Positions 27,701 to 51,200 of a stretch of 64,000 nucleotides of DNA are shown one piece after another. The DNA lies in contig NC_049997.1 of the NCBI RefSeq assembly GCF_000003815.2, positions 10,852,738 to 10,916,737 of the forward strand, given 5' to 3'. This DNA is from Branchiostoma floridae. Taxonomy: Eukaryota > Chordata > Leptocardii > Amphioxiformes > Branchiostomatidae. Under the pieces are notes generated by a model. The model did no database searches, was not told the DNA's origin, and was given only the letters and a program-made list of their open reading frames with translations. Numbering within the stretch: the stretch's first letter is position 1; each line of letters opens with the position of its first letter. The position numbers and the translations under genes are program-made.

Positions 27701-30700
27701 CGGTGATAGCTGGATAGACTGCAAAAGACTGACTAAAACCAATGGCAACTTATTTGTCCTTATTTGGCCAAATCATTCTCTTTTTCATCCAGCTGACACG
27801 TCCGCTTTGAGACTAAAATTACGTAATGATTTGAACAATAAAACACCAGTCAAAGCAAGGGTGTGTGCAGATCTGTGCTGACTTGTGTAAAGACTCTATA
27901 GAAAAGAAAGACTAGGCTCAGTTAACCATTAACTAGTCGCGACATGAAGACATTTAAACCCGCCCCCTCCCCAACTGCTATTTAATGGTGTTTGGCAAAT
28001 GAGTTGCCAAACTATGAGCTGTCTTTTTGCAGGAAAAGTGTAAGGTATTTTCAATAACAGCATTTCGGGCATGTTCTTAGTAGAATGGCATGTGGTATGA
28101 AATTAACGCTCTGAATACAAAATGATGGCATGGGATGGTCAAGTGAAAAACTGTGTCGACCTACTCACCTAGGCCCAAAATACATATATTTTCTCCTTTT
28201 CAATGGTTTACATTAGTGTTCTGACATATCAGACCAAGGTAATTTTTTGGCAGATTTATTTACAACTACAAGGCCACTTAAAAGCCAACCAAGAGGAAAC
28301 GATCTCACAGCACCTGTGAGCTTCTGCTATAGTATACAGATATTGATGCATCTTTTGTAACACCGAGAAAATGTATCGGCTTTGACAAACTTTCTGTATG
28401 TCCTTTTACTCGTTCCTGACACACTTGATCCAAATTGTTATGTTTTTAACTATGGAAAACCTTGCCTCATCTGAAGTACTTGAGCCACACAACCATAGTC
28501 TATACCAGACTGACTACGCTGGCTAGGGAGAATGATTTGGCAGCGGAGTTTTGCTACCAGAAGAGCTGGTCGACCGGAGGAGAAACATGAACCTTAGCAT
28601 GGACTGATTCCCCGGGCCAATTGCCCGATTTGTACCGACTTCTACGCTCCTCGTACCCCCGTAGGAAGGCCTGGTGGTGGCTAGCATAACCATACCTAAA
28701 GGACGCTAGAGTAGAATCACTATACTTCGTCACTCCCATGTCAAAGAACACAGGCAGATAGCAGTGCTAGGACCATAACTACGATCTAACAATCTTGCCA
28801 CATCTGCTTTGAGCTCCAGAATACCCCAACCGCATAACCATATCTAAAGCCAATATAGGACGCTAGAGTNNNNNNNNNNNNNNNNNNNNNNNNNNNNNNN
28901 NNNNNNNNNNNNNNNNNNNNNNNNNNNNNNNNNNNNNNNNNNNNNNNNNNNNNNNNNNNNNNNNNNNNNGTGACGTAGTGGCGAACTTTTGACCCTATAA
29001 GTCGGGTCCGATACTTTGATATGCCCCGATGTTGTGCCCTTGGACATGGCACTTTACATAACTTTCCTTATTGGACGTAGAGGGACGCCCACAGAGCCTC
29101 TCGGCTAATCAGGCTACATGTGTGCGAAAACACACACACACATGGATTTGGTGCGACAGTGTGCAAAGTCTCCAGCAACAGCCGTCAGTTTGTTTTACTG
29201 AAAATTAATCATCCCTGACGCCAAAGACTTGACAGCATTGGCTGTCATATATCCCACACTGTTGTTACAATAAGACCAGTCACCAATAAAACCATAAAAC
29301 GTAATTTGAAACGGAAGGAACCTGAACTTTCATTCCAGGTGGTCTTCACTCTATAAAACACTCCCTTCACTGAAGTCTTTTAATGTCTCACAGTTGCTGG
29401 ACGCGTGTGGGCAAGGTGGCTAACTTGGTTGCCTCGTTCATCTTATACTCGGCTCCAATATGTATATAGTACAAAACAATCGAACAAACAATAGAGATGC
29501 ACAATGATTAGGTTCGAGACTGATTCAAGGAAGGTTGTCCTGAAAGCCCAAATCTCATACCTGAACCCGGGTTCTTGCATAGTATGTAGGAGCTGGCTTT
29601 TGAAGTTCAAGTTTGCCAACAGACTTGGGAGCTAAGGGCAAACTAAATAAGAGTCTTTGGTATTTGAACACTTCTAGCTAGAGTTGTCACGCATATTTCG
29701 GTACTTATTTGAGGAACGTGCGAGTCAGTGGCCGAATGTTAACGTTTCATTTTTCTCAACCAGACTCAGCAAGTTTGGTCTGCCAGAATCCGTGATACCA
29801 TTGACTGGGACTGGCAGTGTTGTTGACCATAGATTATACATTGTTTTCCAATCCCACATTTAGCAAGGTGTACACAGTGGTCACTACTTGTGGTCTGAAT
29901 AACATCCTGTTTTCACAAAAAAAAACGCAATCGCGTTTCCTGCTCATTAATCACATGTCACATGTATTCTTCAACGACACGAGGGAGGAAAAATTCATGT
30001 AGCGCAAGAAGGTCATGTTACTTCCTGTGTGGTTCGTCGAAAATCGTACAGCGTTTATCCATAAACAAATGTGGCAAATGGAATGGCTGTTCATAGTTCT
30101 TCGTGACTTTCATTGGTTACATACGAATCAAAACTTGTTTCAATGAAGAGAACAGATGTTGTGATACTAAGTGAAAGAAAATGATAGTGATTTCGAACCT
30201 TTTAACCCCACGGAAGAGTCCTTCTTTTACTAGTCGTGACAGGGAAGACAGACGCTATGTAGTATTTACAGGCTAGGTTCATTGTTGAAATTCCCCTAGG
30301 ATCTTTTCCACAAACACAATGGACAGTGGGCCGAGGTTTCACGTCCTAATACCCCCCTCACATTAGGCGAAAATCGATCGGACGACGAGTCAGACATGAC
30401 CCTGCTGCCGACGAAGAAATGGCAGAGTTCCCCCTTCCCGTCAGGGTCATGCCTCCTCGTAATTTAGAGCTCGCAGACTCGTCGTCCGATCGATTCTCGC
30501 CTAATATAAGGGGGGTATAAGCCATAAGGACTGCAAGTGCAACCCTTTCTAGAAGTGCGCATGTCGAACGAGAGACACAGCAACGCCACAGTTCCAGAGG
30601 CAGAGCCCCTAACTACTGGACTACGCACCCCTCAAAGTCCTGTATTTGCATATGTGTAGTATTTGCATATTAACTAACTCAGTCTAATAAAGTAACTCAA

Positions 30701-32013
30701 GAACAAAACCTCATCTCCTTGGCTCCTGAGCACTGAGCAATCACAATGCACAGTCAGTGTTGTCAAGATCTGGTAATCTCCAAGCAGATCCTACGGTGCC
30801 ATAAGATAGTATCAAAGCTGGCCAAGGAGTATAGCAGGCCAAAGGGAGTCAAACGGTGGGTTTGATACTATATTACGCCACCGTGGATCTGCTTGGAGAT
30901 TAAAGATCTGGCATGGCAATGTTTAGGTACTATCTGCTTTCAACGCGTTACCTGCGTGTATTCTATCTGAAAAATGCTTGTCAACATGGTCATATTTGGT
31001 TAGCTTCAGGTCAACAGTCCTCAGAATGGACCTTAGACCTCTCAANNNNNNNNNNNNNNNNNNNNNNNNNNNNNNNNNNNNNNNNNNNNNNNNNNNNNNN
31101 NNNNNNNNNNNNNNNNNNNNNNNNNNNNNNNNNNNNNNNNNNNNNAGAATACCCGAGCAGTATAACTTAAACTTCTATAACCGTACCTAAAGCCAATATA
31201 GGACGCTAGAGTAGAGAGTCACTGTACCTCGTAAGCACTCGTCACTCCCAGATCGAAGAACACAGGCAGATAGAAGTGCGCTGAGACCATGACCATGATC
31301 ATGTAGGTGATCCAGAACATCCAGAACATGGTCCCGTACGTGTAGACCTCCGACGGCGTGCCGAGAACCGTGATAGCCGACATGAACGACGCTAAGAGTG
31401 ACATAGCCACCGGCGTGATCGACATAGAGCGGCCGGCTAGCAAGAACTCCTTCGTCGACTTCTGTCCGCCGCCTTTAAAGGCGTAGAAGATGCCGATGCC
31501 GGCAGATATACACAACATGATGGCGAAAACCACGTAGTCCCATGCTGAGAAGAGTGGGTAGTTTCGCGGAGCCAAGCCTTCGGCGACCATCTTGAGTCGG
31601 TACTACGTCGTCTGTGAGTAATAAGTAATGTGACGACAAACTTACGTAGACTTAAGCACCGAATAACGGGCGGTGCGTCAGCATAGGGCGGAGTCACACA
31701 TGCGTAGTTGTGTAAACAGCGCTGTTTGCATGTGACGGCAAATGTAAACATAAACACAGAACCTTTATTGGCTGACTCAAGTGTGGAGACTTTTGCTGGG
31801 TCATCGAATGGTAGAACCAGACTGCTACAGATATCTGAACTGGACGGTCTGCTGTAGTACCATGGGAAGTCGCTAGGGGGATCGTAATTGAGCCATCCTT
31901 AGTTTTACCGACACCTATACCCAGCACTTAATCTTATAAGGATCCAAGACCACTATAGCTACTTCTCGAGTTGTGCTGCTCAAATGCTTGCGCGCGCGCA
32001 CACACACACACAC

Positions 32014-32079
<66 letters not shown>

Positions 32080-34038
32080 ACAAACACACACACAGTGCCC
32101 CAACGGTCATAATAACACAGGTGTTTGTTTTGCCCTTAATGAGGCATACGTCTAATAAGTGTTTATTTGATAAAGAGAGAGCAAAACAAGCACCATGGCC
32201 ACGACCTTGTGGACAGATCTGGGTGAAAAAAAATAATTACATGGATGTCTGTCAGTCAATAAACACCCGAGTTCAGAAAAATAGAAAGGATCTCGATCCA
32301 GTTTTAGCTCACTGAAGAGATAGTCTTCCACTGGCCGTGACAGAGAGGACAGACACTATGTACAATATTTACAGTTTCATTGTACCGGTGAAATTCCCCT
32401 TGCTCAAGTATGATGAACAGTGGACTACGTATACGGCTTAAAACACTTTGCGGTAGCGTGAATGTCGGGAGAGCGATACATATAGTTGAATCGAACTCAC
32501 GGCTTCTAGTTCCAGAGTCAGGGCCGATAACCACTGAACTACGCACGCTACGCAGAATGAACACGTATAGACGTATGCACGTATATAAAAGGAGCCCTCG
32601 CCGGGTAGTTTCCGGACTGTTTTTCTTTTTCCTGCACTTCCGGCCGGTCGTGACCCGTACGAGGACCGTGCGGCTACCGGGCTATTTTGGAGCACGGCCG
32701 GGACCCTAGACTTTTTTTTAAACTACCAGTTAATAGATACCGTCACCTAATGAAAAGTGGACGATTTGGTCTTCTCATGAAGACTTAAAGGTTCATACAA
32801 ATCGTGAGGACACCGAGCGGTATCCTCGGCACCCGGCAGGTCCAACAGGACAACTTGGTGGCTTCAGCCTGGTCGGGGCTTCATCCGCTACGGGTACCAG
32901 TGAAATGCTTGAAGTCACATTTCCAAACCGAGGCCCAACCATGCTTTAGGAAACTAAAAACACAAAATGTATACATAGAAATAAACACAAATCATGCCAA
33001 CGTCTCTTTTTTTACGTTTTGTGTATTTTGGTGTATTTTATATAAAATTTGTCGTTCCCGAAAGCCGCCCGGTCGGGCCCCGGTCTGAAAATGTGACATT
33101 GTGGGCTTGAAACCGCAGAGGTCCCAAGCTCGATACTCCCTGTGTCCCCGCCGTTGTGCCCTCGTGTATTTTACATACGTAGCGTAAGCTACTTCACATC
33201 CCGTACTATGAACACATCACAAACGAGTATGTGCGGGAACAGGTACACCGCCTCGTTGGCCCTCAAGAACCACCGTCGTACGATTTTGATGCCATAAAAT
33301 TTTCAAACAGGCCGTGACAGAACCAACCACCGACATGGATTCAAAACAGAATTTTGTCTAGCAAGACTAATGGACTTTGCAGAGGACGCAAATTTTGTCC
33401 TCCAAAATGCCGGAAGATAGCGATCGTACGACGATCGCACGACCTATGTGACTGCGCCCTTATGCACGATCTATGTGACCGCGCTCTTACCGTGCCTCGA
33501 ACGCACTTGTCGCTCCCAAGTCGAAGAACACAGGCAGATAGAAGTGCGCGGTTATATAATCATGCCATGACCTGTTCGAGTACTTGTATTCCCCTAATAA
33601 AGAGGTTAACTAAAGGGTAACCAAAACCTAATTTAGTCCAGTGAGATAGATGAGAAAAAAAATGAGTTACCGTACCTCGAACGCGCTTGTCGCTCCCAGG
33701 TCGAAGAACACGGGTAGATAGAAGTGCGCGGTGACGGGGATCATAACGGCGTAGGTGGCACACGTCATCCAGTACATGGTCCCGTAGTTATAAATCTCAG
33801 CCGGCGCGGAGAGAACCACTATGGCTGACATGAAGGAGGCTAGGAGAGACATTGCGACGGGCGGGACAGACATCGAGCGGTTAGCTAAAAGAAACTCCTT
33901 CGTCGACTTCTGTCCGCCGCCCTTGAAGGCGTAGAAGATCCCGATACCGGCAGAGATACTCAACAGAATGACGAAGACAACGTAGTCCCATGCTGTGAAG
34001 AGCGGGTAGGCCCGAGGAGCCAGGCCTTCAGCGACCAT
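12578..34038 (-). CDS. SLC5A8-like: SLC5 sodium-coupled monocarboxylate transporter (SMCT/NIS branch), gene A
   Basis: Sodium:solute symporter of the plasma membrane. The SLC5A5/A6/A8/A12 branch moves iodide, vitamins or monocarboxylates with Na+; the substrate here is not determined. Exons in order: first exon 33676-34038 or 31228-31590, then 21741-21806, 21190-21309, 20406-20560, 19801-19941, 19156-19285, 18475-18563, 17701-17813, 16791-16858, 15829-15915, 14528-14742, 13952-14052, 13453-13574 and 12578-12760. The sum is 1953 nt, 650 aa plus stop, with all phases consistent; SLC5A8 proteins are about 610 aa. Family landmarks: LLASFMSAI (TM2), TSAYE joined to [44 protein letters not shown] (Na+-site Ser/Thr region) and [11 protein letters not shown]. 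Two sequons (NET, NVT) sit in the late loop encoded by exon 14528-14742. The tail is charged and ends LTVL, a class I PDZ ligand, a feature also known in vertebrate SMCTs. Confidence 0.9.
13154..13228. repeat. (ACTC)n microsatellite
   Basis: About 19 uninterrupted ACTC units in the last intron of gene A. Its translation (LTHS repeats) produces spurious open frames. Confidence 0.95.
13320..13441 (-). repeat. Tandem duplicate of gene A exon 14 3' end plus a (CA)n/(CG)n tract
   Basis: Positions 13320-13373 repeat 13441-13495, the last about 45 nt of exon 13453-13574 with its donor (GAACAGGTACTCC type). Between them is a CA/CG dinucleotide tract (13376-13428). The copy has the donor but no acceptor-side half, so it cannot be an exon on its own. 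It is a slippage or unequal-exchange duplication of about 122 bp at the end of a coding exon. Confidence 0.75.
13667..13905. repeat. (CA)n-rich microsatellite
   Basis: About 240 nt of CA repeats with interruptions in the intron before exon 13453-13574 of gene A; explains the Val/Cys-repeat open frames on the minus strand. Confidence 0.95.
14775..15123 (+). mobile_element. Hairpin element with GAAACGTCGG boxes, copy 2
   Basis: Same family as 3031-3302, in intron 11 of gene A. It begins CCGTGAATAGTTTCATCAGG and holds the long inverted repeat. It also carries an internal duplication of about 60 bp (GAACTGTGAGCAGCGACACC appears twice, near 14940 and 14993), so the unit is longer than copy 1. Confidence 0.75.
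15240..15820. repeat. Minisatellite of ~130-bp and ~75-bp units
   Basis: Units share CCTGTCCTTGGTGCTGAACG, then CCGTCCAT...ACTATGCC, TACTCTCTGT and GCCACGGATAG. Three long units start near 15410, 15552 and 15695; two shorter ones precede them. The array ends against exon 15829-15915 of gene A, whose donor lies at its edge. Confidence 0.8.
17448..17667. mobile_element. MITE family 1, copy 2
   Basis: Hairpin in intron 9 of gene A with GTAACACTAGTTCACC at the left and GGTGAACTAGCGTTAC at the right; the AAAACAACGGATATAGGGTA arm is intact. Confidence 0.85.
19350..19556. mobile_element. MITE family 3, truncated copy
   Basis: Matches the complement of 3945-4135: AGGGCACAACCCGCCTTACG, then ATCCGTAAGTGATAAGTACC, GGAGCACGCAGACACGCCGC and GTGCAGGCAAAACTTTGTGT. 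One terminus is missing. It lies in the intron between exons 19801-19941 and 19156-19285 of gene A. Confidence 0.75.
20177..20383. mobile_element. MITE family 1, copy 3
   Basis: More diverged hairpin in the intron between exons 20406-20560 and 19801-19941 of gene A. The right arm ends only 22 nt from the exon's donor side, so the insertion sits close to a splice donor. Confidence 0.75.
20640..20724 (-). pseudogene. Partial duplicate of gene A exon 5 ([10 protein letters not shown] exon)
   Basis: On the minus strand an acceptor TCGCAG is followed by 85 nt nearly identical to the 5' half of the functional exon 20406-20560, encoding [20 protein letters not shown] and then FLTVMIQG. The second half of the exon (the EIW...EFF part) and its donor are missing, replaced by unrelated sequence. 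It lies about 80 nt upstream of the intact exon and keeps a usable acceptor, so it could cause a cryptic splice form with a premature stop, or simply be a dead tandem copy. Confidence 0.8.
20798..20928. mobile_element. Hairpin MITE with GGGCTCTCAGTTTTGTGCCG arms
   Basis: GTTTTTATCGGGCTCTCAGT...GCCGTT and GTCTCG on the left pair with CGAGACATAACGGCAC...AGAGAGCCCGATAAAAAC on the right. It lies in the intron between exons 21190-21309 and 20406-20560 of gene A, just upstream of the duplicated exon 5 fragment. Confidence 0.75.
22007..23005 (+). mobile_element. 5'-truncated LINE (L1/Tx1-like) with target-site duplication
   Basis: C-terminal part of a non-LTR retrotransposon ORF2: [17 protein letters not shown], then a CX2CX8HX4C knuckle ([18 protein letters not shown]), then about 95 more codons to a stop near 22624. 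One in-frame stop (TAA at 22329-22331, just after the knuckle) breaks it. The 3' end is AT-rich and closes with an A-rich tail (22985-23005). A 14-bp direct repeat, AAAAGAATGCTGCA, flanks it at 21993-22006 and 23006-23019. It lies in intron 1 of gene A, antisense to the gene. Confidence 0.88.
24135..24178. repeat. (AG)n microsatellite
   Basis: Perfect AG run of about 44 nt in gene A intron 1; a (CT)n run follows at 24641-24742. Confidence 0.95.
24641..24742. repeat. (CT)n microsatellite
   Basis: CT dinucleotides with few interruptions in gene A intron 1. Confidence 0.95.
24938..25123. mobile_element. MITE family 2 (TIR CTCTCCAAGCAGA)
   Basis: Hairpin with ends CTCTCCAAGCAAAGTCTCGG and GTCGAACATCTGCTTGGAGAG, T-rich then A-rich across the middle. 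The same terminal motif marks other elements at 11365-11485, 30776-30900, 39691-39839, 45831-45897 and 50880-51064, a degraded one at 44806-44967, and lone ends near 18440, 23880, 43575, 49040, 60965 and 62460. The interiors differ between copies, so several subfamilies share one terminus. Confidence 0.75.
25311..25381 (+). tRNA. tRNA-Gly (anticodon CCC)
   Basis: A 71-nt cloverleaf: acceptor GCGCCGC pairs with GCGGCGC, D-arm box A TGGTGTAGTGG, anticodon stem CAAGA/TCTTG with loop TTCCCAT (anticodon CCC), box B GGTTCGATTCC, discriminator A. No intron. A T-rich Pol III terminator (TTTTCC then eight T) follows at 25384. It lies in intron 1 of gene A on the opposite strand. Arms pair perfectly, so it is probably functional and not a SINE head. 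Confidence 0.95.
26816..27030 (+). mobile_element. tRNA-derived SINE, family S2 (conserved CCTTGGGAAAGGCAC core)
   Basis: tRNA-like head with box A TGGTGTAACTGGTAGAGCG and box B-like AAGTTCGATTTCC, then a core TGTCCTTGGGAAAGGCACTT, TACCCAGGTGTAAAAATGGG. Diverged copies or fragments are at 28970-29100, 33085-33180 and 50695-50850. It lies in gene A intron 1, antisense to the gene. Confidence 0.75.
27188..27287. other. Assembly gap (100 N)
   Basis: Exactly 100 N, so the true size is unknown. In gene A intron 1. Confidence 1.
28670..28870 (-). pseudogene. Decayed SLC5 first-exon ends next to an assembly gap
   Basis: Positions 28671-28760 repeat, with changes, the intron/exon junction of first exon 1b: the intronic ACGCTAGAGTAGA, a degraded donor, and codons for [13 protein letters not shown] second partial repeat of the intronic part (AAAGCCAATATAGGACGCTA) runs at 28843-28869 straight into the N block. 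The exon body is absent in both. Either these are dead duplicates or the rest of further first exons lies in unsequenced or collapsed DNA. Confidence 0.65.
28870..28969. other. Assembly gap (100 N)
   Basis: 100 N placed within a repeat of the gene A first-exon flank; duplicated sequence may be collapsed here. Confidence 1.
30213..30632 (-). mobile_element. tRNA-derived SINE (family S1) interrupted by a MITE
   Basis: On the minus strand a tRNA-like head (GCGTAGTCCAGTAGTTAGGG, then GGAACTGTGG) is followed, after an interruption, by a body with TTTCAACAATGAACCTAGCC, AAATACTACATAGCGTCTGT and TGTCACGACTAG. Positions 30349-30518 inside it are a complete hairpin MITE of family 5. Other copies of the SINE are at 32310-32556 (minus) and 53335-53600 (plus). 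Confidence 0.7.
30349..30518. mobile_element. MITE family 5 (TIR ATACCCCTGTCACATTA)
   Basis: Inverted arms ATACCCCCCTCACATTAGGC/GCCTAATATAAGGGGGGTAT, followed inward by GAAAATCGATCGGACGACGA/TCGTCGTCCGATCGATTCTC. A second copy at 35224-35457 confirms the family. It is nested in the SINE at 30213-30632. Confidence 0.8.
30776..30900. mobile_element. MITE family 2, short hairpin copy
   Basis: Palindrome from ATCTCCAAGCAGATCC through GGTGCC...ATAGTATCAAAGCTGG to the complementary GATCTGCTTGGAGAT, in intron 1 of gene A upstream of the gap at 31046. Confidence 0.8.
31046..31145. other. Assembly gap (100 N)
   Basis: 100 N, 82 nt before the donor side of gene A first exon 1b. Confidence 1.
31228..31590 (-). 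CDS. Gene A candidate first exon 1b (TM1-TM3 module)
   Basis: Also exactly 363 nt, from ATG at 31590 (context CTCAAGATGG) to GAG|GTACAG. It encodes [14 protein letters not shown], then [34 protein letters not shown] and a TM3 with [18 protein letters not shown], ending TSAYE. It is the first exon nearest to the shared body of gene A and therefore the default choice. The donor-side intron carries a short sequence (ATAGGACGCTAGAGT) that recurs at 28680 and 28858 beside assembly gaps. Confidence 0.88.
31990..32093. repeat. (CG)n/(CA)n microsatellite
   Basis: A short CG run then about 95 nt of CA repeats, between the two candidate first exons of gene A. Confidence 0.95.
32310..32556 (-). mobile_element. 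tRNA-derived SINE, family S1
   Basis: Minus-strand head GCGTAGTTCAGTGGTTATCG with box B-like GTGAGTTCGATTC, then a body with CCGGTACAATGAAACTGTAA, ACATAGTGTCTGTCC and TCTGTCACGGCCAGTGG. It lies between the two gene A first exons. Confidence 0.75.
33270..33489. mobile_element. MITE family 4 (TIR CATAGGTCGTGCGATCGTCG), copy 1
   Basis: Hairpin with CGTCGTACGAT at the left and CGATCGTACGACGATCGCAC then GACCTATGTGACTGCGCCC at the right. The inner part has AGGCCGTGACAGAACCAACC and TTTTGTCCTCCAAAATGCCG. Other copies are at 48609-48817 and 58733-58947. Confidence 0.8.
33488..33550 (-). pseudogene. Fragment of an SLC5 first exon 3' end
   Basis: On the minus strand this 60-nt stretch matches the last codons and donor of first exon 1a (the part encoding [15 protein letters not shown], then GAGG), about 130 nt downstream of exon 1a's own copy. 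Similarity stops on both sides; upstream on the minus strand it runs into unrelated sequence (TTATATAATC), so it cannot encode the N-terminal module. I read it as a remnant of first-exon duplication. It lies at the edge of a GTACGATCG-type MITE copy. Confidence 0.7.
33676..34038 (-). CDS. Gene A candidate first exon 1a (TM1-TM3 module)
   Basis: A 363-nt exon of 121 codons from ATG at 34038 to GAG|GTACGG. It encodes [14 protein letters not shown], a first membrane segment ([20 protein letters not shown]), the [17 protein letters not shown] loop and the [13 protein letters not shown] segment, ending TSAFE. It would splice to the exon at 21741-21806. It is closely similar to exon 1b (31228-31590) but differs through TM3 ([13 protein letters not shown] here). 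The start context CTTAAGATGG resembles that of the other three first exons. No second set of downstream exons lies between 31.6 and 33.7 kb, so either both first exons feed one transporter body or this one is an orphan. Confidence 0.85.
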
Positions 34039-35860
34039 CTTAAGTCCTGAGTGTCTTCAGATTTGTGTCCACTTTATGTAAGACGGACGTCCTTTTCTTA
34101 GACGGACCAAGACGTTATGTAAGTTTCAAGAACGCGTCACGCGGGAAGAGAAATCACTTTATAACGTCGTTACGTCACACAGGATAAGGCTCAAAGTGCA
34201 AACCAATTGTTGTTGTTGTTGTTGTTGTTTTCTTCATTTTTTTTCATAAAAATCAACAGAATTGTTTCCAACATGCGAACTGTGTTAAAAATTCCGTTAA
34301 ATGTTTAAATAAATCTTGGGCATTTGTACAAAAGAACCTAACAGATTCAGGAGTGACCAGGTATGTTTGGTCCAGTTGTTTGAGGATCGAGAGACCCATG
34401 CCATCCAAGTCGTATTTCTCGTTAATGGATAACCAAGGTAAAATGAGAGATACGATAGACTCTTGGTTGTAGGTCGTCAGTGTCCTACAGGTCGTGTTTT
34501 CGTAAAGAGGAGCCGGGGGGGGGGGGGGGGGGCAAGGTCTCCTCTGAACAAGATATAGGAAAATATATCAAAGAAGGTTTGGATATTAGAAACTCCTCAA
34601 CTGATTGTAAAAGCTTCCAATGATTGTAAGAAGCTTATCCCATACTACAACTCCGGTATTAGTTAGTTAAGCTATGGAACTGTAGTTATGTAGATGCCAT
34701 ACTTTGTACCTCATACAATTGTTGTGCAATAAAGTTATATGTAACTTTGAGGGGGTCTCTTACTTATGCCTAGGTCACATTTCCAAACCGGCGCCTGACC
34801 GGGCAGCTTTAAGAAACGAAATGTAAGACATCAAAATGTACATGACGCAAAAAGGAGTGGTGTGCATGATTTGTGACATTTTAATTCTTCGTTCCTAAAA
34901 TAGAACAGCCCGACCTGGCTCCGGTTTAGAAATGTGACCCTTGCACGAAGCTACGGTACGTTGAGCCATTTGACAGAGCTCTGGTGTCATCAATAGGAAA
35001 TTACAAACTTTTTACGCTCTTGGTTGCATTTTGATGTTTTTTTAGTCATACTGGTACGCATGCACGCACGCACACACGCACAGGCACACACGTAGACATA
35101 CACACAGACATTGACACGCATACACAGGTACACAGGTACACACAAACAAACTTAGTTCTGATCAGAATACCAGACTGGAGGAATTTAAAATGCGCGCAAT
35201 CTGAGTCTACATGTACGTGTCATTATACCCCTGTCACATTATGCACTATCTTCGGGCGTATCGATGGAAGATCGTCCATATTTAAGACTGACAGAGGGTT
35301 GCGCTTATTTTTCACCTGAAAACCGTCCCTGACACATATAAGCCATACTTGTACCTTGTAGAATTGTTATACAACGAAGTTATCACTATAAGCGTTGCTC
35401 GGGCGATTGCCGCAGACTCGTCGTCCGATCGATTTTCGCGTAATGTGACAGGGGTATTAAGAAGCAGTTAGACGAGCCTGATACACCAGCAGTCGGACAA
35501 TCAGACTACTGCTTAATCCCGTCTAACCACTTCATAATGACACGTACACTCAGATTACGCGCTGTTTAAAACCCTTCATTTCCTCCTCTCCTACGTGTAG
35601 GTTTTCCTGCCGTGTTTGCAAAAAGAAGTCTACTTCAATATCGACGGACTACAAAGCACAGGTGTGGACTCACTATGTCGCACTGAGGGGGGCTGAAAAC
35701 TCCTAAAACTGAGCAGGCAGGAGTTTTCTGTGCCCCCCAAGAGCGTCTGTGCCGCAGCACCTCTCAGAGTTAGTCTTGTAGATCAGTTCCTTCAAGTCTC
35801 TCTGGACTGCGACCTTGCTAACCTAAGGACTAAGACCGTGGCCACCAAGAAGTCCTCAAG
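34039..35860. promoter_or_regulatory. Divergent interval between gene A and gene B first exons
   Basis: 1.8 kb between two ATGs pointing away from each other. It must hold the promoters of gene A exon 1a and gene B exon 1a if these are used. It contains a short CA-rich stretch (35050-35150), a poly-G run near 34510, the 3' end of a LINE-like repeat with TTGTGCAATAAAGTT at 34724-34738, and the nested MITEs at 35187-35575. I see no clear TATA box. The 300 nt before each ATG is free of recognisable repeats. Confidence 0.5.
35187..35575. mobile_element. Nested hairpins in the divergent gene A/gene B interval
   Basis: A family 5 MITE (35224-35457, ends ATACCCCTGTCACATTATGC and CGTAATGTGACAGGGGTAT) sits inside another palindrome, whose arms are ATGCGCGCAATCTGAGTC...GTACGTGTCATTAT (35191-35226) and ATAATGACACGTACACTCAG...ACGCGC (35534-35562). 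The whole lies about 300-650 nt upstream of gene B first exon 1a. Confidence 0.7.
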
Positions 35861-36223
35861 ATGGCGAACCCAGGCTTCGCTCCCCGGCACATCGCCCTAT
35901 TCTCTGCCGCAGACTATGCCGTGTTTATTGTCATGCTCGTGATTTCCGCGGCTATCGGGGTCTTCTTCGCCTTCGCCGGCGGTCGACAGACTTCCACCCG
36001 AGAGTTCCTCCTGGCGGACGGAAAGATGAGCATATTCCCCGTCGCCATGTCGCTGTTAGCCAGCTTTACGTCCGCTATAACCATTCTAGGAATGCCTGCG
36101 GAGATCTACATGCACGGGACGATGTTTGCCATGATCGGGCTGTCTTTCGCACTGATGAGTTTGGTAACTGCATACATCTACATGCCTGTGTTCTACTACC
36201 TGGGTGTCACAAGTGCTTATGAG
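35861..36223 (+). CDS. Gene B candidate first exon 1a (TM1-TM3 module)
   Basis: A 363-nt exon from ATG (context CTCAAGATGG) to GAG|GTGAGT, encoding [20 protein letters not shown], the [17 protein letters not shown] loop, [17 protein letters not shown] and a divergent TM3, ending TSAYE. It is the most divergent of the four first exons: Gly-Lys replaces the Arg-Ser/Arg-Gln pair after LLAD, and Thr replaces Met in the ASFMSA motif. To be used it must skip the first exon at 41174 and join the exon at 47240, across an 11-kb intron that carries a TG microsatellite and the 37081 repeat element. Confidence 0.82.
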
Positions 36224-39200
36224 GTGAGTAAATACTGTTATTAATTGTCTTCGCCAAGTTGGTTATTTTTTCGCGCGTGTGTGTGTCTGTCTGTGTGTGT
36301 CTCTTTGTGTATGTGTGTCTGTCTGTGTGTGAGTGTATGTATGTATGTATGTGTGTATGTGTGTGTGTGTGCGTGTGTGTGTATGTGTGAGTCTGTGTGT
36401 GAGTGTATAATTTATGTGTATGTGTGTGTGTATGTGTGAGTCTGTGTGTATTTGTGTGTGTGTGTGTGTGTGCGTTTGTGTGTCTGTGTGCCTGTGTGTG
36501 AGTGTGTTTCTTTCTTTCTCTTTGTTTCTGTTTCTGTGTGTGTGTGTGTTTGTGTCTGTGTATGTACGCGTGTGTGTCTGTGTGTCTGTGAACAGCATGA
36601 CTCATGACACCTTTGTCGATGGATCTCTATACTGTTTTGTATGTTGGAGACTGCTTGCCGGTATGATATTGCTGCCCCTTAGTGTATAGATTTAATAATG
36701 TACTTTAGTCTATACCACTGATCACCATTAGCTAAGACGAAGAATAGTCAGAGGAACTAGCGTTATATATATTATAATGTTCGATATACTGCCATGCGGC
36801 CATTCCTGTCCTATCTTTCTGTCCCGGTAAAAGATACATGCACGGGCGCAAAATGGCACAACACTAGTGACATCTATCTGTCTGCTTTGGAATTGCATTA
36901 AAACTTCGGTACGCCGCATTGCCGTGATTTTGCATGATAAAGGTGAACATACACGTTACATGCTAACGCTACCAGGGTCAAAGTCAAAGTCAAGGCTGTG
37001 CAGTTGGCTCGGCCCCTATATATAGCCCCATAGACCCATAGCAGACTCCACATAAACGATTATTATAATTATAATTATTACCTGCATGTATGCAGGTATG
37101 GTTTTGATGCTGGTGGAAACTTTTCGGTAGCCGGGGATGTAGGGCGCTGTATCTCGTGAACGGATGGTGCGAGCACGACGATTTTTGGTACGTGGGTTGG
37201 GGGTGGTAGCCTGACACTCAGGTGTGATTTTGGGCCTCCTGGCGCTTGACCTTGACATTGAAGGTGGCATTTTTTGTGTTTTTGGGGCACTTTTGGCGCT
37301 GTGTGTCCTGAACGATACGCGCGATTGCGACGATTTTTGGTGCATGGGTGGGGGGTTGTTGCCTGTTGCCTAGGATTGACTTTGGGCCTTGTCGCGTTTG
37401 AACTTGACCCGGCAGGTCGAATTTTGTGTCCGGGAGGGGTGTTTCCGGAGTTATATCTTCTGAACGGCTGGTGCTGGCGCGATGATATTTGGCACATGTG
37501 TCGGCGGTGGCTGAATAATGCTCAATTTTGATTTTGGCGCCCTTGGTGCTTGAACTTGACATTTTAGGTTACCTTTTGTGCGGGCACGGGGCGTGCGCTG
37601 TATCTCCGGAACGCAAGGTGCCATTGTGTTGCCATTTGGTACGTGAGTTGTTTGTGGTGTCCTGGTGGTCAGGTTTGATTTTGGGCCTCCTAGTGCTTGA
37701 ACTTGATACTGTATAGGTTGACCCTGTTTTAGTGTGGTTGGGGCATCCTCCCAATATCTGCTTGGTTTTAAAAACAGATTATGGTTGGGTGTAGAACCAT
37801 CATCTGGCCTGGGCCACCTTCAATGTATCAGGTTACTTAGTGGCACTGACAGTTTGCCAGATGACGGGAGTGTGCCAGATTATATATATCTGTTGGTCAG
37901 GTATAATTGGAGTTTGCTTATTACTCTTTGTGGTGTTTCTAGAGCTGTATAGTACTGAGTTTTAAGTTCCGGTACAAGTTCCTTTACCCTGTTGGCAATC
38001 ATGGTTGAACTTGAACTTAAACAGAAGAAGATGCAATTTTCTAATGTGGAGGAGAACTGTATAGAGTGTGGGCATAAGAGAAAGGTATGTGTATGATTTG
38101 TCCTGTGTTTCTTTTTGTTTCTTTGGTAATGCCATTTCCATACTGTATACAGGTAATTTGTTGTTTTGGGCTAGTCATATTCGCTTGGTTTTTGGGCCTG
38201 CTTAATCTATGGTACAGGCAGGGTTAAGTGGTGGAGGCTTAGCTTTGTTCTGTTTTAAATTCAGTATCGTTTGTTGCATTTTGTCGCGGCAAATATATGA
38301 TGAAATTCCCCTTCTAAGCAACTGCTCATTGGTTTGCGGGGATGTTTGCTGGGTGTTTGCTCTGACTACAACAGCTTCTGAACTTTTCAAAGCTTCCATT
38401 GCTAGCAGCTTGCCATCTATAAATGGGATTGACAAGGACATTTTTCATAGTAAATTGTGCTGTTAAATTTGGCTTAGATACTACAGGAGATTTAGGTTTG
38501 GGTTGGATGGATTGAATGAAAATATCATACCACCCTGGGGACTAACTGTTGCTGCTGCATGGGGGCTACCACTATTCATATTGTCTAATGTCTATGGAAC
38601 TACAGATAAAAGTATCATTGGTCAAATTATGCGAGTAACATTCCGATGTCAAGTGAATAACACCCCAGAAATAAATCTTTAATGAATATCATTGGAAGAA
38701 CACAAACCAAGGAGACTTAGCAGCTGCATTAGGTCAGTACATTGAAATAGGAAGATATTAGTATATCATGTGACAGAGTAACTACATGTGCATGGGCCAT
38801 TTGAGACAAAAAAAGGTAGCGTCTCAACAACTTCAAAGTACTGTGGTTGGTTACATACTTAAGAAATCCAAAATAAGTAATGTTCATCCATGTCCAAACT
38901 TACAAATTCAGAAAATGGAATTTCAGAGTCAGACTTTTGCATGGTGCACAACCAACACGGTAAAAAGCTCATTTTTCCAACCACGTACCACAGACAAAAA
39001 GGCAAAAATACACAATAGGTCTACAGAAACCCAATACATTTCATGCAGGCCTGAGGTCTACGAACTCTTGTTGTAATTTTTCTTGAGTATGGAATTTTTC
39101 ATCAGCGCGGGCTCTATTGGCCGGTATGGAAAAGGTGGTTGCCATAAAACCGCGACCGAAATCAAATAACAGCAGACTCTGGAGTCTTGTCTTGTTATTT

Positions 39201-42200
39201 TGGTCAGAGACTGGGTTCTAGGCTAAGATAACAGTTTATTATCAAAGAGAGAAATACACTAATTGATAAAGATCACTAAACGTTGTATCAAAACCGCCCG
39301 ACAGCCTGTCTTATAAAATCAATGCAGTAGTCGGGATTAGGGCTTGGTACCGGTACGGACTCTATATTAATTTTACCAACCTTTACAGTCAATCGTACAG
39401 AGGTAGTTAGCCTTCTGCCTGAGATTTTTAAAACGCCAGTGGAAGTCGAATACTACACAATACTAGATGTCTTTGCAGCAAATTGGACCGTTGTTTTGAG
39501 TATCGTCCATTCACAAGTTTTCACATGCTGAATCAGGTCCAGGTTCAGGTCCGGACCTGGACCTGATCCTCTGGACCTGAACTGGACCTGGACCACCGGT
39601 ACCCACCCCTAGTCTGGAGATACCAGACTGTTTCCATGGTAGTATGCACATGTATCTACTACAGGCCAACTCCTCGGCTCTATGTCAAACATGCCTATTC
39701 TCCAAGCAGAGGTTGGTTCGCGGAAATGATACTGATAGTCGACAGGATTTTTACTGGATGGTGAGAAAAGCGATCCATGGCCAGTAAAAATCCCGACGAC
39801 AACTACTCTCTCCGCGACCCAACCTCTGCTCGGAGAATAAAACATGCCCCCAACTAGCCTGACTAAGTAAAATCGCGCTCCTAGCGGCCGGCCTTGTAGT
39901 TGCCACCAGCTAGGAACCCCAGCCAGCGAGACATTTTGCAAACGCGGGATAGCCCCAATGGGCCAAAGAAATTCTACAACAGGGCCAGGGTCTGGCATCC
40001 AGGCTAGAAATATGGAAATTACTCGATAAGAACCCTTTTGACCTCGCCTCTTCTCCTGCACAACATGTCGTCCTTATGCACAGCTAGTTGGTCGCACGAT
40101 CCCCTTAGGGATGGTACATTTTACACTAAGGCAGGAGAAGCAAATGTGCAACGTCGAATCCAGTTTGTCCATATGAAACGCCACCACTCAACTTTTTCAC
40201 AACTTTTTAAAAGAACGATTCATGTATCCATTCTTGACCATCTCGTCAGGCAATAATAAAAAGAACAGTTAGTAAAAGTAGATTAGTTCAAGTTAGTCAG
40301 TTTTCAAAGAAAGCATTCAAGTTGCCCTCTGGCTGAGTGGCTGTCCTATTTGACCGAACAATGTACATAGTTTGTTGCGTCAGTTTTTACCACTTTAGCA
40401 CACATTGTAACATCATGTTTATAAATTAGGGGGCGCAAGTCATTCCCTGCACATGATAGTTTGTGGCTTTAATAAATAGGTACTACTGTGCTAATAATGC
40501 AATTCACGACAAAAAAAACATGCCGCCCCACCCCGTCTGAACTTCACAGGTAGGTCCGTCCATTTTCGACTAATCATAACTGACAGCTGATACACCCCGG
40601 GTACCCCTTACCCCGTCCCGGTTCCCAGTACGCAGGCGTGGGGTCAGTAAGTAATCCAACCCGCCAGGCCTTATCGCAAGGCCACCAGGTGAACTCTTCT
40701 CACGACGATCCTGCAGTGTTCCGGCTTTGTTTGAGTTCTTCTAACTGTCTCTTCCCGTGAGTTTCATCCGCCAGTGTTTGCACACCGGTGTCCGGTTCTG
40801 TGTACGCTTCGCTCCGACTATAGCTACCGTACGTACGCAGAGACGTCGCACAACAGTCTGGATTTATTTTCCTACCAAGGACGCTTCGTGAAGAAGAAAT
40901 TCTCCGAGCTCTCACGACACAGAAGTCGTCGCTGACTCGCGTTATTCTACAAACTGTAGCGTCTTTTCAAGTGTCTGTGACCGTCTTGTGACGTTCTGCA
41001 GCTGTTTTGTGTACTGCCAGCAGGCCTTGAAAACGTTTGATTCAGTTTCGTTCCGCTTGACGAACGCGTCCCCTGGACTGTGTTTAGGTCGCCCCTCCCC
41101 CTTCTCGGCGGAAGTACTAAATCCACCAAGGAGTTGAAAGATTCTTCAAGACGCCACACAAGACGTCTTCAAGATGGTGAACCCAGGCTTCGCTCCTCGC
41201 GACATCCCCTTATTCTCGATCCCCGACTATGTCGTCTTCGCGATCATGTTGGCGATATGTACCGGGATCGGGATCTACTACGCTTGTGCGGGCGGAGGGC
41301 AGAGAACGACCCGCCAGTTCTTGCTAGCCGACCGGCAGATGCAGATCCTTCCCGTGGCCATGTCTCTACTGGCGAGCTTCATGTCAGCCATAACTGTGTT
41401 AGGTACCCCAGCGGAGACCTATGTCTACGGGACTATGTACTTCATGTTTTGTATCTCCTACCTGATCATGGGTATGGCGGCAGCGCATATCTACATGCCC
41501 GTGTTCTTCAACCTGGGAGTCACCAGCGCTTACGAGGTAAGACAAAATATTTGTGTCATCAAAAGAAAACAAAAGGGCCACAAAAAGTTACTAAATATTT
41601 ACATGTTTTCGGGACTTGACTAAACGCAAATGTGTAATTGTAAAAGTTCACAGGGAAGGTCTTCGTGTTTTTCTTTCTTTCATAAATTTGATTACCTCGG
41701 GGTCACCAGTGCTTTGATACGAGGTAAGACAATTTATCATCATAACAAAACAAAAGGCCACAAGAAAAGAACTGAATTACATGTTTTCAGGACTTGACGA
41801 GCTTAAAAATTACATGAAAATGTGTAATTATGAATGTTCACAGCCGTCTAGATATGTGTTGGTTTTATGTATGTAGGTGTTTTTCTTTCTTTCAATGATT
41901 ACACTGTGTTTACAAAGCCATGGCTTTGCTTGAGTAGTTCAGTAGGGGACTAACCAAACATGATACCGAGGGGTGTCAAAATGACAGAAAGAACTCTTAA
42001 AACACTTTTAGCGCACCTTTGTCTTTTGATTTCTCCTCAACATCGATTTGCTTGTATGGTTTTGTGCAAATCATGGATTCATAGCCCACCGACTTTCTGC
42101 CATACAGTCCACAAACGTATATATAGCGAAGTGTCCCTAATTCTCATACAATGTTCGAAATACGTCGTTGCCCAGTTGCACAGAAGTATGTGACCACGTA

Positions 42201-45200: not shown

Positions 45201-48200
45201 TCAAGACAACAAGACTAGACGGCTTTCCTATGACAAGTAGAAGTAGAGGATGGTATAAGTCTATAAGAACATCACCGCCGGATATGTGATTCGACAGTCG
45301 AGATGCAAAGCTAAGGTCCAGGATGTCATAGTTTACAGGGCCTACACAGGTCCTTTTAATACCTTCCTTGGGGTCATGTTGGCCATAGACTGGCCGAGAA
45401 GTTGACCTTGAAACAGTATCGCATGTAGTCAAGTCCAACCACAGCCATGGAAAGGAGATAGTCCATGTCAAAGAAGGGCAAAGAAGCTACTCCTTCATAG
45501 ATTCAGGTTTATCAGGCCCACGAGAAGGGCCGTCTTTCTCGTTTCTCCAAGTCAGGTAAGTCAGCTAGTAGTCTGTGTAACGCAAATTCCGCTATCCGGA
45601 GCTTGTAGACTCCTCCCCGCGGATATGTACGACGGGCCTGAGAAGCGCGATTAAATCAGGCTAGTCAGCTAGCTGTTTTGCCAGACGTTCTTTCACACCG
45701 CAAAGGTCACTCACAGGGTCACTCACTCCAGGCGCTCCGCCCCTCGGGCGCTCTGTGGGGAGTTTTCAATTAGGGACGTTCCATTTGATACGCAGGGTTG
45801 GAGGATTGGACGGAATGTGCCTTTCGGCTACTCTCCAAGCAGAAGTTGGTCGACAAAGGTCACGATTTTCCCCACCAATCTCTGCTTGGAGAGTGCCTTT
45901 AGGCCATGTTGGTTTGATTATATGGATGGAATCATCAATTTTTGTCCGTTTCCAATGATAAAAAGTTTTCACCTATAGTTTTAATCGTACAAAGCAGCTG
46001 CAAAAAGAGCAAATACATTCCGTAGATTGCAAGAAAAAATATCGGGAAATGTATTCTAGTGACATAGAGTGCCAATGTCAATTCCAAGGTCATCCATATA
46101 ATCGAAACAACATTGACTAACTTGTAAAGAAAAGCCCCCCCCCCCCTTCTCTAGTTCTCTTTTTACCCATTACCCTGCACGCTAGGGGCCTGACCCTTCT
46201 AAGATCAATCGTAAGACATCTTTCGTTAGGCAGGTGTGAGAACTCCTTCATGACAGTTCACGCCGTTGCTAGGCAACCACACATTCCTCTGACAACATCC
46301 AACCAAACACAACTCCAGTCTTGTTTACATCGTCATGGGTGCAAAACAAACTGTTTACAGTTTAGATGTCCTGATCAGGGTTTGGAGTAAACATTCCGTT
46401 ACAGAGTCTTAACTTTCAAGAATGAAGAAGAAGAACTTTCAAGGTACAAATATGAAATTGAATGACGATCTATTCTACTATACTATACTCTGCTATACTC
46501 TAATAAAAAGGGTAAATTTTTCTACGAATGTACTAAATTTTATCTTGCTAATGTCAACAGTTTTTCCTTGAAATAAAATTGCATTCATAAGGCAAAAATA
46601 TATCGCTGTGTTCAAAATCAGTTATAAAAAGAGTAATGTCTTGCTACTGGACTTACTACATATATATATCAATGAATGACAGCAAATATTGTAAACTTTG
46701 CTAGTCCATTGCGGTCTTCATGGGTCCATAAATTTTCAAACGATTTATCTGTTGAGTCCACTGGAGTTTCAGCAAGTTATACCAGGTCACGCATTTCTGT
46801 CTCCCAAAATAAGCAAATATGTGGGAGAAAAGTACACAAACATGAACATCTGCCACTTTCCCTAGGCCCTGACCAAAGTTCGGGTAACCTGCAAAGACAA
46901 GTTTCAACAGTTCGTACATGATTTCCTAACAAAATCACTTTCTTAACTGAAAATAAATACGCTAGAATGAACAGATAGTAAACACATTTCACAAATTCAG
47001 TCTATATAGCAATGCGGCATCAATAGGGCTCGCGTACAAAACTGGTAAACCCTTACTATTCTCGAAAAGTGTGTTCAAAAGTGTCAAAAGCCGTCACATA
47101 CACGGGATCGGCTTTTCTGTGTACAAGTATTCAAAGCAATTAATCCTGAATATGTTTTTTGATTCATTAACCAATTGATTGATTGGTTGATTGATTAATT
47201 AATCGACAAATTGATTTATTGATTTTATTTGCCACACAGTACCTTGAGCGACGGTTCTCCAAGGGAGTACGCCGGGTGGGATCAGCAACATTCATTCTGC
47301 AGATGGTGAGTACCTGCAAATACAGTAAGAGTCGCTAGATGGTGCTGCCTTCTTGCATTGAATGTCGACCATGAAATGGGACTTTAATGTCGTTTTTACG
47401 AAAATCGAGTCACAAAAAATATCAGATTACAGGTAAAACCTGCAAATACAGTAAGTCAGAAGAGTCGATAGGCGTTGCAGTCTTCTTGAATTGGATTTCG
47501 ACCGTGTAATTTCGTAATTTCCGGAGAATTTCGTTTTTACTATGTAAACAACACAAGACGTGAGCTGCATTGGTTTCTCTTGCAGGTGATGTACATGGGC
47601 ATTGTGCTGTACGCGCCTTCACTGGCACTGGAGGCAGGTGGGTTGATTGAATGGACGATTGAATGAATGAAATAATGAAGGAAGGAAGGAAGGAATGGGG
47701 AAGGAAGGAAGGAAGAAAGTAATCAACACAGGAAGAAGGGAATGGAGGAAGGAAGCAAGGAAGAAAGTAATGAAGGAAGAAAGAAAGCAATGAAGGAAGG
47801 AAGGAAAGGAGGGAATGAAGGAAGGAATGGTCAAATGAATGCAGAAAGAAAAGGAGTAAGGGGTGAAGGAAGAAGGAAGAAGGAAGAAGGAGGGAAGAAA
47901 AGTGAAGTCCCCTTCTCTAAACTACAGATTACAAAGATGTTGATTCCTCCTCAGAGATGACAAGTGGAGGTAAGAGATGAGATGCCTTGGTTGGCGCTAC
48001 GTTGTGCATACACATTATGCCCACCTGTAAACTATCGTTACCTTGTCTTACCTCTGCAGTGACGGGCATGAACGTGTGGGCGGCCGTCCTGTCTCTGGGT
48101 ATCATCTGCACCTTCTATACAACTATCGTAAGTCGGCAATCTCTACAAAGATGATAGGATATTAGGTATAGCTCTTTTGTTACGGAAAAAATATCAAACG

Positions 48201-51200
48201 AAAAGTAAATCAAAGTCTTTTTTTTAGCCTTTAGAACAAAGCATACATATCCCATACATGTGCGCAATCAAAAAAGTGTTAACAACACAGTTGTTATCTA
48301 GGGACTCCAGGAAATATGGGAGCGATGGCAATTAAATACTGAAGATCAGGTCTCTAGACCTATTTGATACCACAATGGTACCACCATGGCCACGTACGGA
48401 GTTATACAAAAGCACGATGTTGTCCCTCCAGGGCGGTATGAAAGCCGTGCTGTGGACCGACACGTTCCAGGTGTGTGTGATGGTAGCGGGGTTTCTCGCC
48501 GTCATTATCCAGGGGTGCCACCAACTGGGCGGGATCGCTGAGGTCTGGAAGGTCAACTACGAAGGAGGGCGGCTGGAATTCTTCAAGTTCGTATACTGAT
48601 ATAACTTAGGGCGCTGTCTCATAGGTCGTGCGATCGTCGTACGATCGCTAACTTCGGGCATGTTGGAAGACAAAATTTACGTTTCCTGCAAAATCCAACT
48701 GTTTTTGTACACAAAATGCTGTTTAGGATCCATGTTGGTGGTTGGTTCTGTCACGGCCTGCTTGAAAATCCTAAATCAAAAACGTACGACGATCGCACGA
48801 CCTATGTGGTCGCGCCCGAAAATATAAACTAGTATAACAAGCGACATACGTTCTACTAGCTGTGTTGAAGTATTTGTCAGGGTAGCTCTGCATAAACTGT
48901 GAACTAGCGGTTAGCGATCCCCTTCACGATTACAAGGTGTTATAGGGTCGAATCCTTGCCGAACCGTTAATGACGTAATCTCTAATTTACATACTGCCAC
49001 TTCACTTTCCCTTTCTTACTAATAAAGGAGTAGTACCGAACCTCTGCTTGGAGAGTAACGAAACCCTTCCTTTGTTTGTGCAGTTTTGACGTGGACCCCC
49101 GCGTGCGCCACTCCTCCTGGTCCGTGCACATCGGCGGAACCTTCATGTGGATCGCCATCTTCGGGGTGAACCAGGCTCAGGTCCAGCGCTACCTCACCGT
49201 GGACAAGCTCAGCAGGGCTCAGATGTAAGGCTCAACCTTCCTTTTCTCTTAGCCATGAAGATTTTCTCTTAAGGTGTCAGAACACAGTATTTAGACCACC
49301 AGAGCTAAAAAGGTAGTTCGGGTTTAAGTTGTGCATCAGGTCCAGCGCTACCTCACCGTGGACAAGCTCAGCAGGGCGCAGATGTAAGACACAACATTTG
49401 TTTTCTCTCTGCCCAGAAAAACATATCCACCAGAACGTTAACGACCCAGAGGGCTGTCTATTGTAAGAAGTATAAGATTTAGTAAGTAGTAAGTGACTGA
49501 GTAAACTCGTCCAATGTTAGCATATTTTTCAGTGCTTTGTTTTGGTTGTTGCGATCTTGTGTTTATAATCTCATTGTTTTGTGACAACCTTACCTGTTTG
49601 AGTAGAGTAGAGTAGATCAGGTACAGTAGCCCAGGAAGGAGATTCTGGCTTCAGTTTGGGTCGCACATTCAGTTGATCACAATATCATTATGTTTCTAGT
49701 ATTCTGATTTTTGGTGCCCAGTATATGGATAGAATTTCAGTGCCTAGAAAATGGTTATAGTTGTTCCTTGTTGACGATTTTCACTGTCCTGTACATGATT
49801 ATGAATGTGCCCTGTGAACAATTTTCAGTGCCCTGTACCTGAACGTTGTTGGGCTGTGGCTGATCGTGACCCTGGCTACCCTGTGCGGGCTGGTCCTGTA
49901 CGCTTTCTACAAGGACTGTGATCCCATCGTGGCCGGGTATATCAGAACCTCTGACCAGGTGCGTTTGGGCATGAATCTGCAATCGTTTTTCACTCACTCA
50001 CTCACTCACTCACTCACTCACTCACTCACTCACTCACTCACTCACTCACTCACTCACTCACTCACGCACTCACTCACTCACTTACTCTCACACACCCACT
50101 CACCCACTCACTCACTCACTTACTCACTCTCACTCTCACTCACTCACACACTCACTCACTCATTCACTCACTCACACACTCACTCACTCTCTCACTTAAC
50201 CACTCACGCACTTATTCACACACTCACTCGTTCACTCACTCATTTACTCACTCACCCACCCACTGTCATTCATTTATTCACTCAATCACTCCTCACTCAC
50301 GGACTCCCCATTCATTCATTCAGTCACTCACTCACCCAGCCATTAAATTTTTTACAGATGTGTGTATCTAAATAGATGTGAATGAGTGGACTAGCAACAT
50401 TTATCCCTTCTCTCGCTTTTCTTTCAATTTATCTGTGTGTATGTTTTCCAGTTTCTTCAGGAAAAATATTATCCCCTTGTTTTTGTAACAACCATTTCCA
50501 CTATTTTTGTAGCAACTCTTTCTACTTTTTCGCATCGTAGTTATATGTTAGCATTGGTTATTTCCCCCCTGCGCAGCTGATGCCCCTAATAGTGATGGAG
50601 ATCCTGAGTTGGTTACCAGGTCTGCCCGGGCTGTTCGTGTCGTGTGTGTTCGCCGGGGCTTTGAGGTATGTTTGTTTATTGTTCATTATTTTGTACATGG
50701 AAGGTCGTATGGCGTACCTGCGTGGTATTTGACCCCAAACTTGGTCCAGTGGTCCTGGGTTTGAATCCTGTCATGCTCCCAATCTTGTACCTTTGGGGTA
50801 GACACGTTACACGACTTTCCTCATGTGAATCAGTGGTGACATAAAGCGGAGATGCAACTTGTGCGGACTTACATCTACAGTAGTCTCCATGCAGACCCTA
50901 CGGTGCCTTAGAAATAGTATCAAAGCTGGCAAGGGACTTAGTATAGCGGCACCAGGTGCCCGTTTGACTCCCTTTGGCCGGCTATCTCCCTTTGGCCGGC
51001 TATACTCCTTTGCCAGCTTTTATACTATCTCTTTAGGCACCGTAGGGTCTGCTTGGAGACTACGTCTACAGTGGAAACCGCAAATAGGAAAAGACAAGAT
51101 TCACAGAGGCCTTCTTTTGCAGTCATTGATAAGACTTGTGATAACAACATGATCCGTAACACCTAGATTTTGATAGAAGGTCATAGAATTCTTTTCCTTT

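Follow-up and report, generated by a model that had tools for sequence, protein, structure and literature searches.

Two head-to-head SLC5 genes of Branchiostoma floridae that probably each choose between two coding first exons on a shared body

In vertebrate UGT1A and PCDH alpha/gamma, tandem variable first exons share constant exons, and relic exons and birth-and-death evolution are described for these clusters (PMC1885805). Here we describe a comparable arrangement in a 64,000-nucleotide (nt) stretch of the Branchiostoma floridae genome (NC_049997.1:10,852,738-10,916,737; hereafter the window, on which all positions are based), where two head-to-head SLC5 genes probably each carry two promoter-chosen variable coding first exons on a shared body; we put the probability of this reading at about 0.7. 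As in UGT1A and PCDH alpha/gamma, at least two homologous, same-phase tandem coding first exons encode a variable N-terminal module ahead of one constant downstream set, relic exons are present, again as in UGT1A, and the exons group by side. Unlike those clusters, which have about a dozen first exons, the locus offers each body two, its two sets stand head to head, the exchanged module is part of a membrane transporter core and not a soluble or extracellular domain, and the promoters and splicing are predicted ones.

Among transporters, SLC12A1 (NKCC2) has homologous alternative exons for a core helix, exon 4 A, B and F, which shift ion affinity; these are internal, mutually exclusive and picked by splicing, whereas the exons described here are first exons that would be picked by promoter choice. 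The alternative promoters of GLUT9 and GLUT11 mainly alter the cytoplasmic N-terminus, and neither gene is known to have homologous duplicated exons for core helices. Both are single transporter genes with alternative promoters, as predicted here (SLC2A9 and SLC2A11; PMC12347752, in a table entry for GLUT9 and a cited title for GLUT11). Human SLC5A12, of the same SLC5 clade, is named as a gene with two promoters, one of which accounts for most of its expression; the study counts any distinct first exons, and its excerpted text makes no mention of duplicated coding exons (PMC2923625). The initial annotation of this stretch had stated that SLC5 genes are not known to be organised in this way; as regards alternative promoters SLC5A12 speaks against this, and as regards duplicated coding first exons no such SLC5 gene was among the literature matches listed, mostly titles and abstract openings with thin coverage of subscription journals. 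In the excerpts used, the SLC5-family paper PMC9309457 contains neither 'exon' nor 'amphioxus', and the thyroid review PMC13078365 holds nothing bearing on first-exon doubling.

The minus-strand gene has a distal and a proximal first exon, named M1 and M2, and the plus-strand gene likewise P1 and P2. M1 (33676..34038, minus strand, 121 codons) ends GAG/GTACGG, the slash marking the exon end; M2 (31228..31590, minus strand, 121 codons) ends GAG/GTACAG, a weak donor; P1 (35861..36223, plus strand) ends GAG/GTGAGT, a strong donor; and P2 (41174..41536, plus strand) ends GAG/GTAAGA. All four are 363 nt long, as first annotated, and are open from ATG to GAG/GT, with Glu as the last codon followed by a phase-0 donor. 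In all four, YTYAAG stands directly before ATGG; M1 (CTTAAG) departs by one letter from the start motif given for them, (C/T)T(C/A)AAGATGG. The equal length, which had been singled out, is instead a family trait: in G4, a fourth gene of this contig at a distance of about 200 kb (loci L011, L012 and L026), the two-part first segment also totals 363 nt, and equal length was therefore rejected as evidence. Nor are the four exons interchangeable throughout; a swap is possible within each strand's pair but not across pairs, each of which has its own body. Protein identity is 79% for M1-M2, 71% for M2-P2 and 59-63% for the remaining four pairs, DNA identity is 78.5% for M1/M2 and 68.6% for P1/P2, the four protein sequences align without any gap, and tblastn between different exons gives E values of 4e-42 to 2e-63, a likeness well beyond chance. 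Homology by blastn stops close to the exon borders, 8 nt upstream and 12 nt downstream for M1 versus M2, and about 20 nt upstream and 5 nt downstream for P1 versus P2. When single exons were compared with the Pfam SSF domain, M2, P1 and P2 scored above the cut-off and M1 just below it (21.8 versus 22.8 bits).

The bodies were laid out by tblastn with an SMCT1 probe, which found one per strand, and were then turned into splice-exact models. The minus-gene body (13952..21806) comprises E2 (21741-21806), E3 (21190-21309), E4 (20406-20560), E5 (19801-19941), E6 (19156-19285), E7 (18475-18563), E8 (17701-17813), E9 (16791-16858), E10 (15829-15915), E11 (14528-14742) and E12 (13952-14052), and open frames near 13593 and 12760 on the same strand are probably its C-terminal exons. 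The plus-gene body (47240..54373) comprises E2 (47240-47305), E3 (47586-47637), E4 (48060-48127), E5 (48432-48586), E6 (49084-49224), E7 (49829-49958), E8 (50577-50665), E9 (51206-51318), E10 (51795-51862), E11 (52198-52284), E12 (53083-53294) and E13 (54270-54373), and one or more further C-terminal exons probably lie inside the plus-strand open frame 54825-55157 and beyond. The exon 2 starts at 21806 and 47240 had been placed correctly at the outset. Each body model stays in frame and yields a 549-amino-acid SSF protein, ending before the last C-terminal exons, and Pfam PF00474 (SSF) covers the whole core with 139.3 bits for the model with P2 and 148.9 bits for that with M2 (cut-off 22.8). 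The P2 form, the only one compared with the PDB, matches SMCT1 best (7sl9, E=8.6e-173), then NIS (3.6e-142) and SMVT (5.9e-141), and much more weakly the sodium/glucose cotransporter 2xq2 (1.7e-25). Judged by these similarities, both genes are SLC5 members of the SMCT/NIS/SMVT clade, SMCT-like and not of the glucose-cotransporter type. Part of E4 of the minus gene is repeated in tandem at 20644-20727 on the minus strand; this truncated copy is ~95% identical along 90 nt and lacks the remainder of the exon.

Each pair of first exons has a single downstream exon set, in agreement with the initial annotation. With the SMCT1 probe and both bodies, which end before the last C-terminal exons, as queries and E values up to 1 admitted, tblastn gave no body-exon match in seven intervals around the first exons (M1-M2, P1-P2, P2-E2, M1-P1, E2-M2 and the two outer flanks, the minus intervals containing runs of N), and hidden second bodies were rejected on this ground; reversed bodies, used as a control, also matched nothing there. 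The window has four 100-N gaps (27188-27287, 28870-28969, 31046-31145 and 56968-57067), and the plus side is free of N from 35861, the start of P1, to 54373, the end of the body. The distal exons lie 11-12 kb from their bodies, and the body introns measure at most about 1.1 kb.

From this layout we infer promoters, splicing to the shared body and a functional difference between isoforms. Transcription would begin separately at each first exon, driven by a promoter directly upstream, and the phase-0 donor of that exon would join the single exon 2 of its gene. Promoter choice would thereby determine residues 1-121 of an otherwise constant protein. The proximal exon of each pair appears to retain more of the conserved sequence and the distal exon to have diverged, also at positions that we take to belong to the NIS substrate and Na+ sites, so that the two isoforms of each gene are likely to have different substrate preferences, coupling or tissues. 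Alternative promoters swapping the N-terminal module had been proposed from the first; two intact first exons per body, matching phase, no second body found, joint constraint on the distal exons (p=0.006, see below) and a gap-free plus side speak for this proposal, whose weaker part lies in the three N gaps of the minus side and in the predicted nature of the promoters and splicing. The 1.8-kb interval between the distal start codons (34039..35860) would hold both divergent distal promoters. A TATAA stands 125 nt upstream of the M1 ATG, and no TATA(A/T) occurs within 300 nt upstream of the M2, P1 or P2 ATG. The AAG adjoining each ATG was considered as a splice acceptor, and no pyrimidine tract was visible by eye in the upstream sequence. 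A scan of the intergenic stretch for bacterial-type promoters and terminators, a type of scan uninformative for animal DNA, remained at chance level. On a matrix built from 23 body donors, which themselves score 5.0-10.9, the first-exon donors score 10.0 (P1), 7.0 (M1), 7.0 (P2) and 1.6 (M2).

Exon trees pair the first exons by side. M1+M2 is supported at 95/91 with 8 rows and 94/96 with 12 rows, P1+P2 at 86/88 and 75/84, respectively, and approximately unbiased (AU) tests reject the cross-pairings M2+P2 (p-AU 0.005 with 8 rows, 0.0004 with 12) and M1+P1 (0.015 and 0.028). Because the trees pair the exons by side and reject cross-pairings, the doublings look independent; orthologous pairs M1-P1 and M2-P2 from a two-exon ancestor are rejected by the AU tests, unless gene conversion within each side erased the signal. 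By this evidence, either each gene would have doubled its first exon separately, or an old doubling would have been homogenised within each side. The four exons come together at 79/89 in the 8-row tree; in the 12-row tree, G4 joins M1+M2 at 53/43, and a single group of four is not rejected (p-AU 0.156). Nonsynonymous and synonymous divergence (dN/dS, by NG86) is 0.14/0.80 for M1-M2, 0.24/1.64 for P1-P2 and 0.20/1.22 for the bodies, and in the 8-row tree the distal exons have the longer end branches (M1 0.24 versus M2 0.024; P1 0.46 versus P2 0.13).

Three relics of first exons were found near the intact ones. The last ~60 nt of M1 are repeated within the M1 intron (33487..33555, minus strand; 92% identical in nt, with GC in place of the donor GT), the 3' end of an M-type first exon with the start of its intron lies ~2.5 kb downstream of M2 (28697..28869, minus strand) and abuts the N gap 28870-28969, and the last ~26 nt of P2 with donor and intron start recur directly downstream of P2 (41694..41843, plus strand). 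These relics suggest birth and loss of exons at the locus. As detected, they consist of no more than roughly the final 26-60 nt together with a piece of intron, and the front of the exon is never included.

Selection on the distal exons was assessed with a codon model (F3x4, a single fixed tree), using as outgroup either G4 or G3, a third gene at the end of the window. With G4, omega is 0.167 on the two distal branches versus 0.033 elsewhere (likelihood-ratio test (LRT) 9.58, p=0.002), and neutrality of both distal branches is rejected (LRT 7.55, p=0.006, for this outgroup only). For P1 alone, neutrality has p=1.4e-5 (G3) and 0.034 (G4). M1 and P1 contain no stop or indel. Among non-coding repeats of the window, gap openings number 0.070 for each mismatch (97/1394 in 33 pairs, coding stretches being excluded by a hand-made list); on this yardstick 2.7 indels would be expected in M1 and 4.0 in P1 if half of the differences within each pair were neutral, and the probability of the zero seen is 0.066 and 0.019, respectively. 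Taken jointly, the selection tests favour a function for both distal exons, for P1 more firmly than for M1.

Several results weigh against two usable first exons on each body. With outgroup G3 there is no rate difference on the distal branches (LRT 0.52, p=0.47); the single-branch neutrality tests, that of P1 included, are weak and outgroup-dependent, M1 alone giving p=0.028 (G3) and 0.12 (G4), and even M2 alone, with outgroup G4, gives p=0.14. Branch lengths in the codon model hit their bounds, and synonymous sites are saturated. The four relative-rate tests on amino acids are mixed, with M1:M2 counts of 13:3 with P2 as outgroup (p=0.021) and 8:4 with P1 (p=0.39), and P1:P2 counts of 21:10 (p=0.07) and 17:12 (p=0.46). 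If half of the differences were neutral hits, M1 and P1 would be free of stops with a probability of 0.25 and 0.245, and the 25 amino acid differences of M1 would also be expected. The P1+P2 grouping is without strong support, and sequences this short with saturated synonymous sites do not decide between separate doubling and homogenisation. The M2 donor is the weakest of the four, though M2 is the better conserved of its pair. The 120 nt upstream of the four ATGs align unconvincingly and share no visible promoter motif; the promoters are predictions because the upstream sequences align poorly and TATAA was found at M1 alone. Finally, the M1-M2 interval is gap-free but three N gaps lie between M2 and its body, and the minus side is less secure owing to these gaps and the weak M2 donor.

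The alternative that survives best, though we consider it unlikely, is that M1 and P1 are orphan first exons, leftovers of partial tandem duplications that have fallen out of use or never had one and have so far escaped decay. Partial exon copies are indeed common here, comprising the three exon-1 relics, the truncated E4 copy (20644-20727) and three truncated copies of G4 exon 1b; moreover, the distal exons evolve faster with one of the two outgroups (G4), the tests on M1 alone do not firmly reject neutrality, and the absence of stops is weak evidence. Such leftovers are, however, hard to reconcile with the joint rejection of neutrality, with reading frames free of stops and indels and with the good donors of both exons. 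In addition, homology disappears a few bases outside the exons, so that the duplications look old and the unselected sequence around them appears to have drifted.

It is much less probable that a mis-join or a haplotype duplication in the assembly placed extra first exons beside one body. The gaps starting at 27188, 28870 and 31046 between M2 and its body, a near-identical 2.0-kb repeat at 37075 and 62500, and the construction of the B. floridae reference from two divergent haplotypes merged by software (PMC7269912) would all allow it, but the DNA identities within the pairs were judged too low for alleles, and no gap interrupts the sequence between M1 and M2 or that running from P1 through the plus body. 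Slightly less probable still is a transcription of the distal exons for another use, as short proteins ending in intron 1, by splicing beyond the window or by trans-splicing to another body, which would suit the distance of 11-12 kb to the body, far above the length of the body introns, but not the good phase-0 donor kept at the same place in M1 and P1, nor the result that, up to the next gene, no SLC5 continuation other than the shared body was found for the first-exon pair of either strand.

If each body does carry two usable first exons, what they exchange would be part of the transport machinery. From comparison with solved relatives, we take the 121 residues to be an N-terminal helix, transmembrane helix 1 (TM1) and TM2 of the LeuT-fold bundle, with helix numbering assumed. 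Positions were numbered after NIS, anchored on a residue assumed to be 12, in an 8-row alignment including the four exons, G3, SMCT1 and SMVT. The four exons vary at 63/121 columns. Among NIS positions 66, 67, 69, 72, 91 and 94, which presumably line the iodide and Na+ sites, S66, F67 and S69 are constant in all four. The exons differ at NIS 68, 72, 75 and 90-94, an area that we assume to line the pocket: position 68 holds T in P1 and Q in SMVT, all remaining rows having M; position 72 is V in M1 and T in M2, P1, P2, G3 and SMCT1; position 75 is G in seven of the eight rows, M1 having S; position 91 is C in both M1 and P2, but W in M2 and G in P1; and position 94 is F in P1 and Y in M1, M2 and P2. 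At the 62 columns common to G3 and SMCT1, M1 departs 18 times, P1 21, M2 12 and P2 15; at the 42 columns common to G3, SMCT1 and SMVT, the counts are near even (M1 8, M2 7, P1 7, P2 6). As a tentative extension, held with less than even confidence, one body might receive either of two TM1-TM2 halves of the moving bundle with different substrate or Na+ contacts, giving two selectivities per gene, an arrangement that would have arisen twice side by side, in two paralogues, each time leaving the conserved exon as the proximal member of the pair and the diverged one as the distal member.

The paralogues show how far the doubling extends. The first coding segment of G3 (61123..62353, plus strand; loci L009 and L010) is split into 61123-61224 and 62108-62353, and its body lies past the window end, with matches within 13 kb beyond it. 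The first segment of G4 is intron-split at another place. Its exon 1b occurs in four tandem copies beside an N gap (L011 4557-5290, in 164-181-bp steps), the first three truncated and the last intact. Within 50 kb around G4, 30 kb past the window and nine 10-kb flank loci that partly overlap these stretches, G3 and G4 have a single first-exon set for each body; the doubling is thus present in 2/4 paralogues, the minus gene and the plus gene. Three C13 genes and one C18 gene have one first-exon set each, as searched with M2 at E up to 0.01 in 10-20 kb per region, a short upstream reach; three of these four genes served as tree outgroups. They and G4 had been pointed to by a Pfam SSF search of the whole genome (513 Mb, 431 contigs), which gave at least 69 matches; M1 and P1 were not among the matches listed.

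A truncated copy of a body exon in G3 (L009 7381-7473) is 93.5% identical to the plus-gene protein versus 68.6% for G3's own exon, which makes an exchange between paralogues possible. The plus gene (37075-39075) and G3 (62500-64502, past the window end) share, in intron 1 of each, a 2.0-kb unit at 98.9% identity with an internal repeat spacing near 150 bp; the link between P1 and G3 at which this hinted was rejected, as the trees do not join the two. Elsewhere in the window, the long open frames 1640-2803 (plus strand) and 4732-5790 (minus strand), in opposite orientation, may by their look be parts of seven-helix receptors (G-protein-coupled receptors).

If confirmed, duplicated coding first exons that swap a pair of core helices in a LeuT-fold transporter, and do so in both of two neighbouring genes, would be new. 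The UGT1A principle of exchanging a substrate-facing module and retaining the rest would then extend into the membrane core of a secondary transporter, and the isoforms would be natural chimeras, identical in the remainder, for measuring how TM1-TM2 influence selectivity and Na+ coupling. As the host is a lancelet, such genes would also be relevant to how the endostyle and thyroid came to transport iodide and monocarboxylates.

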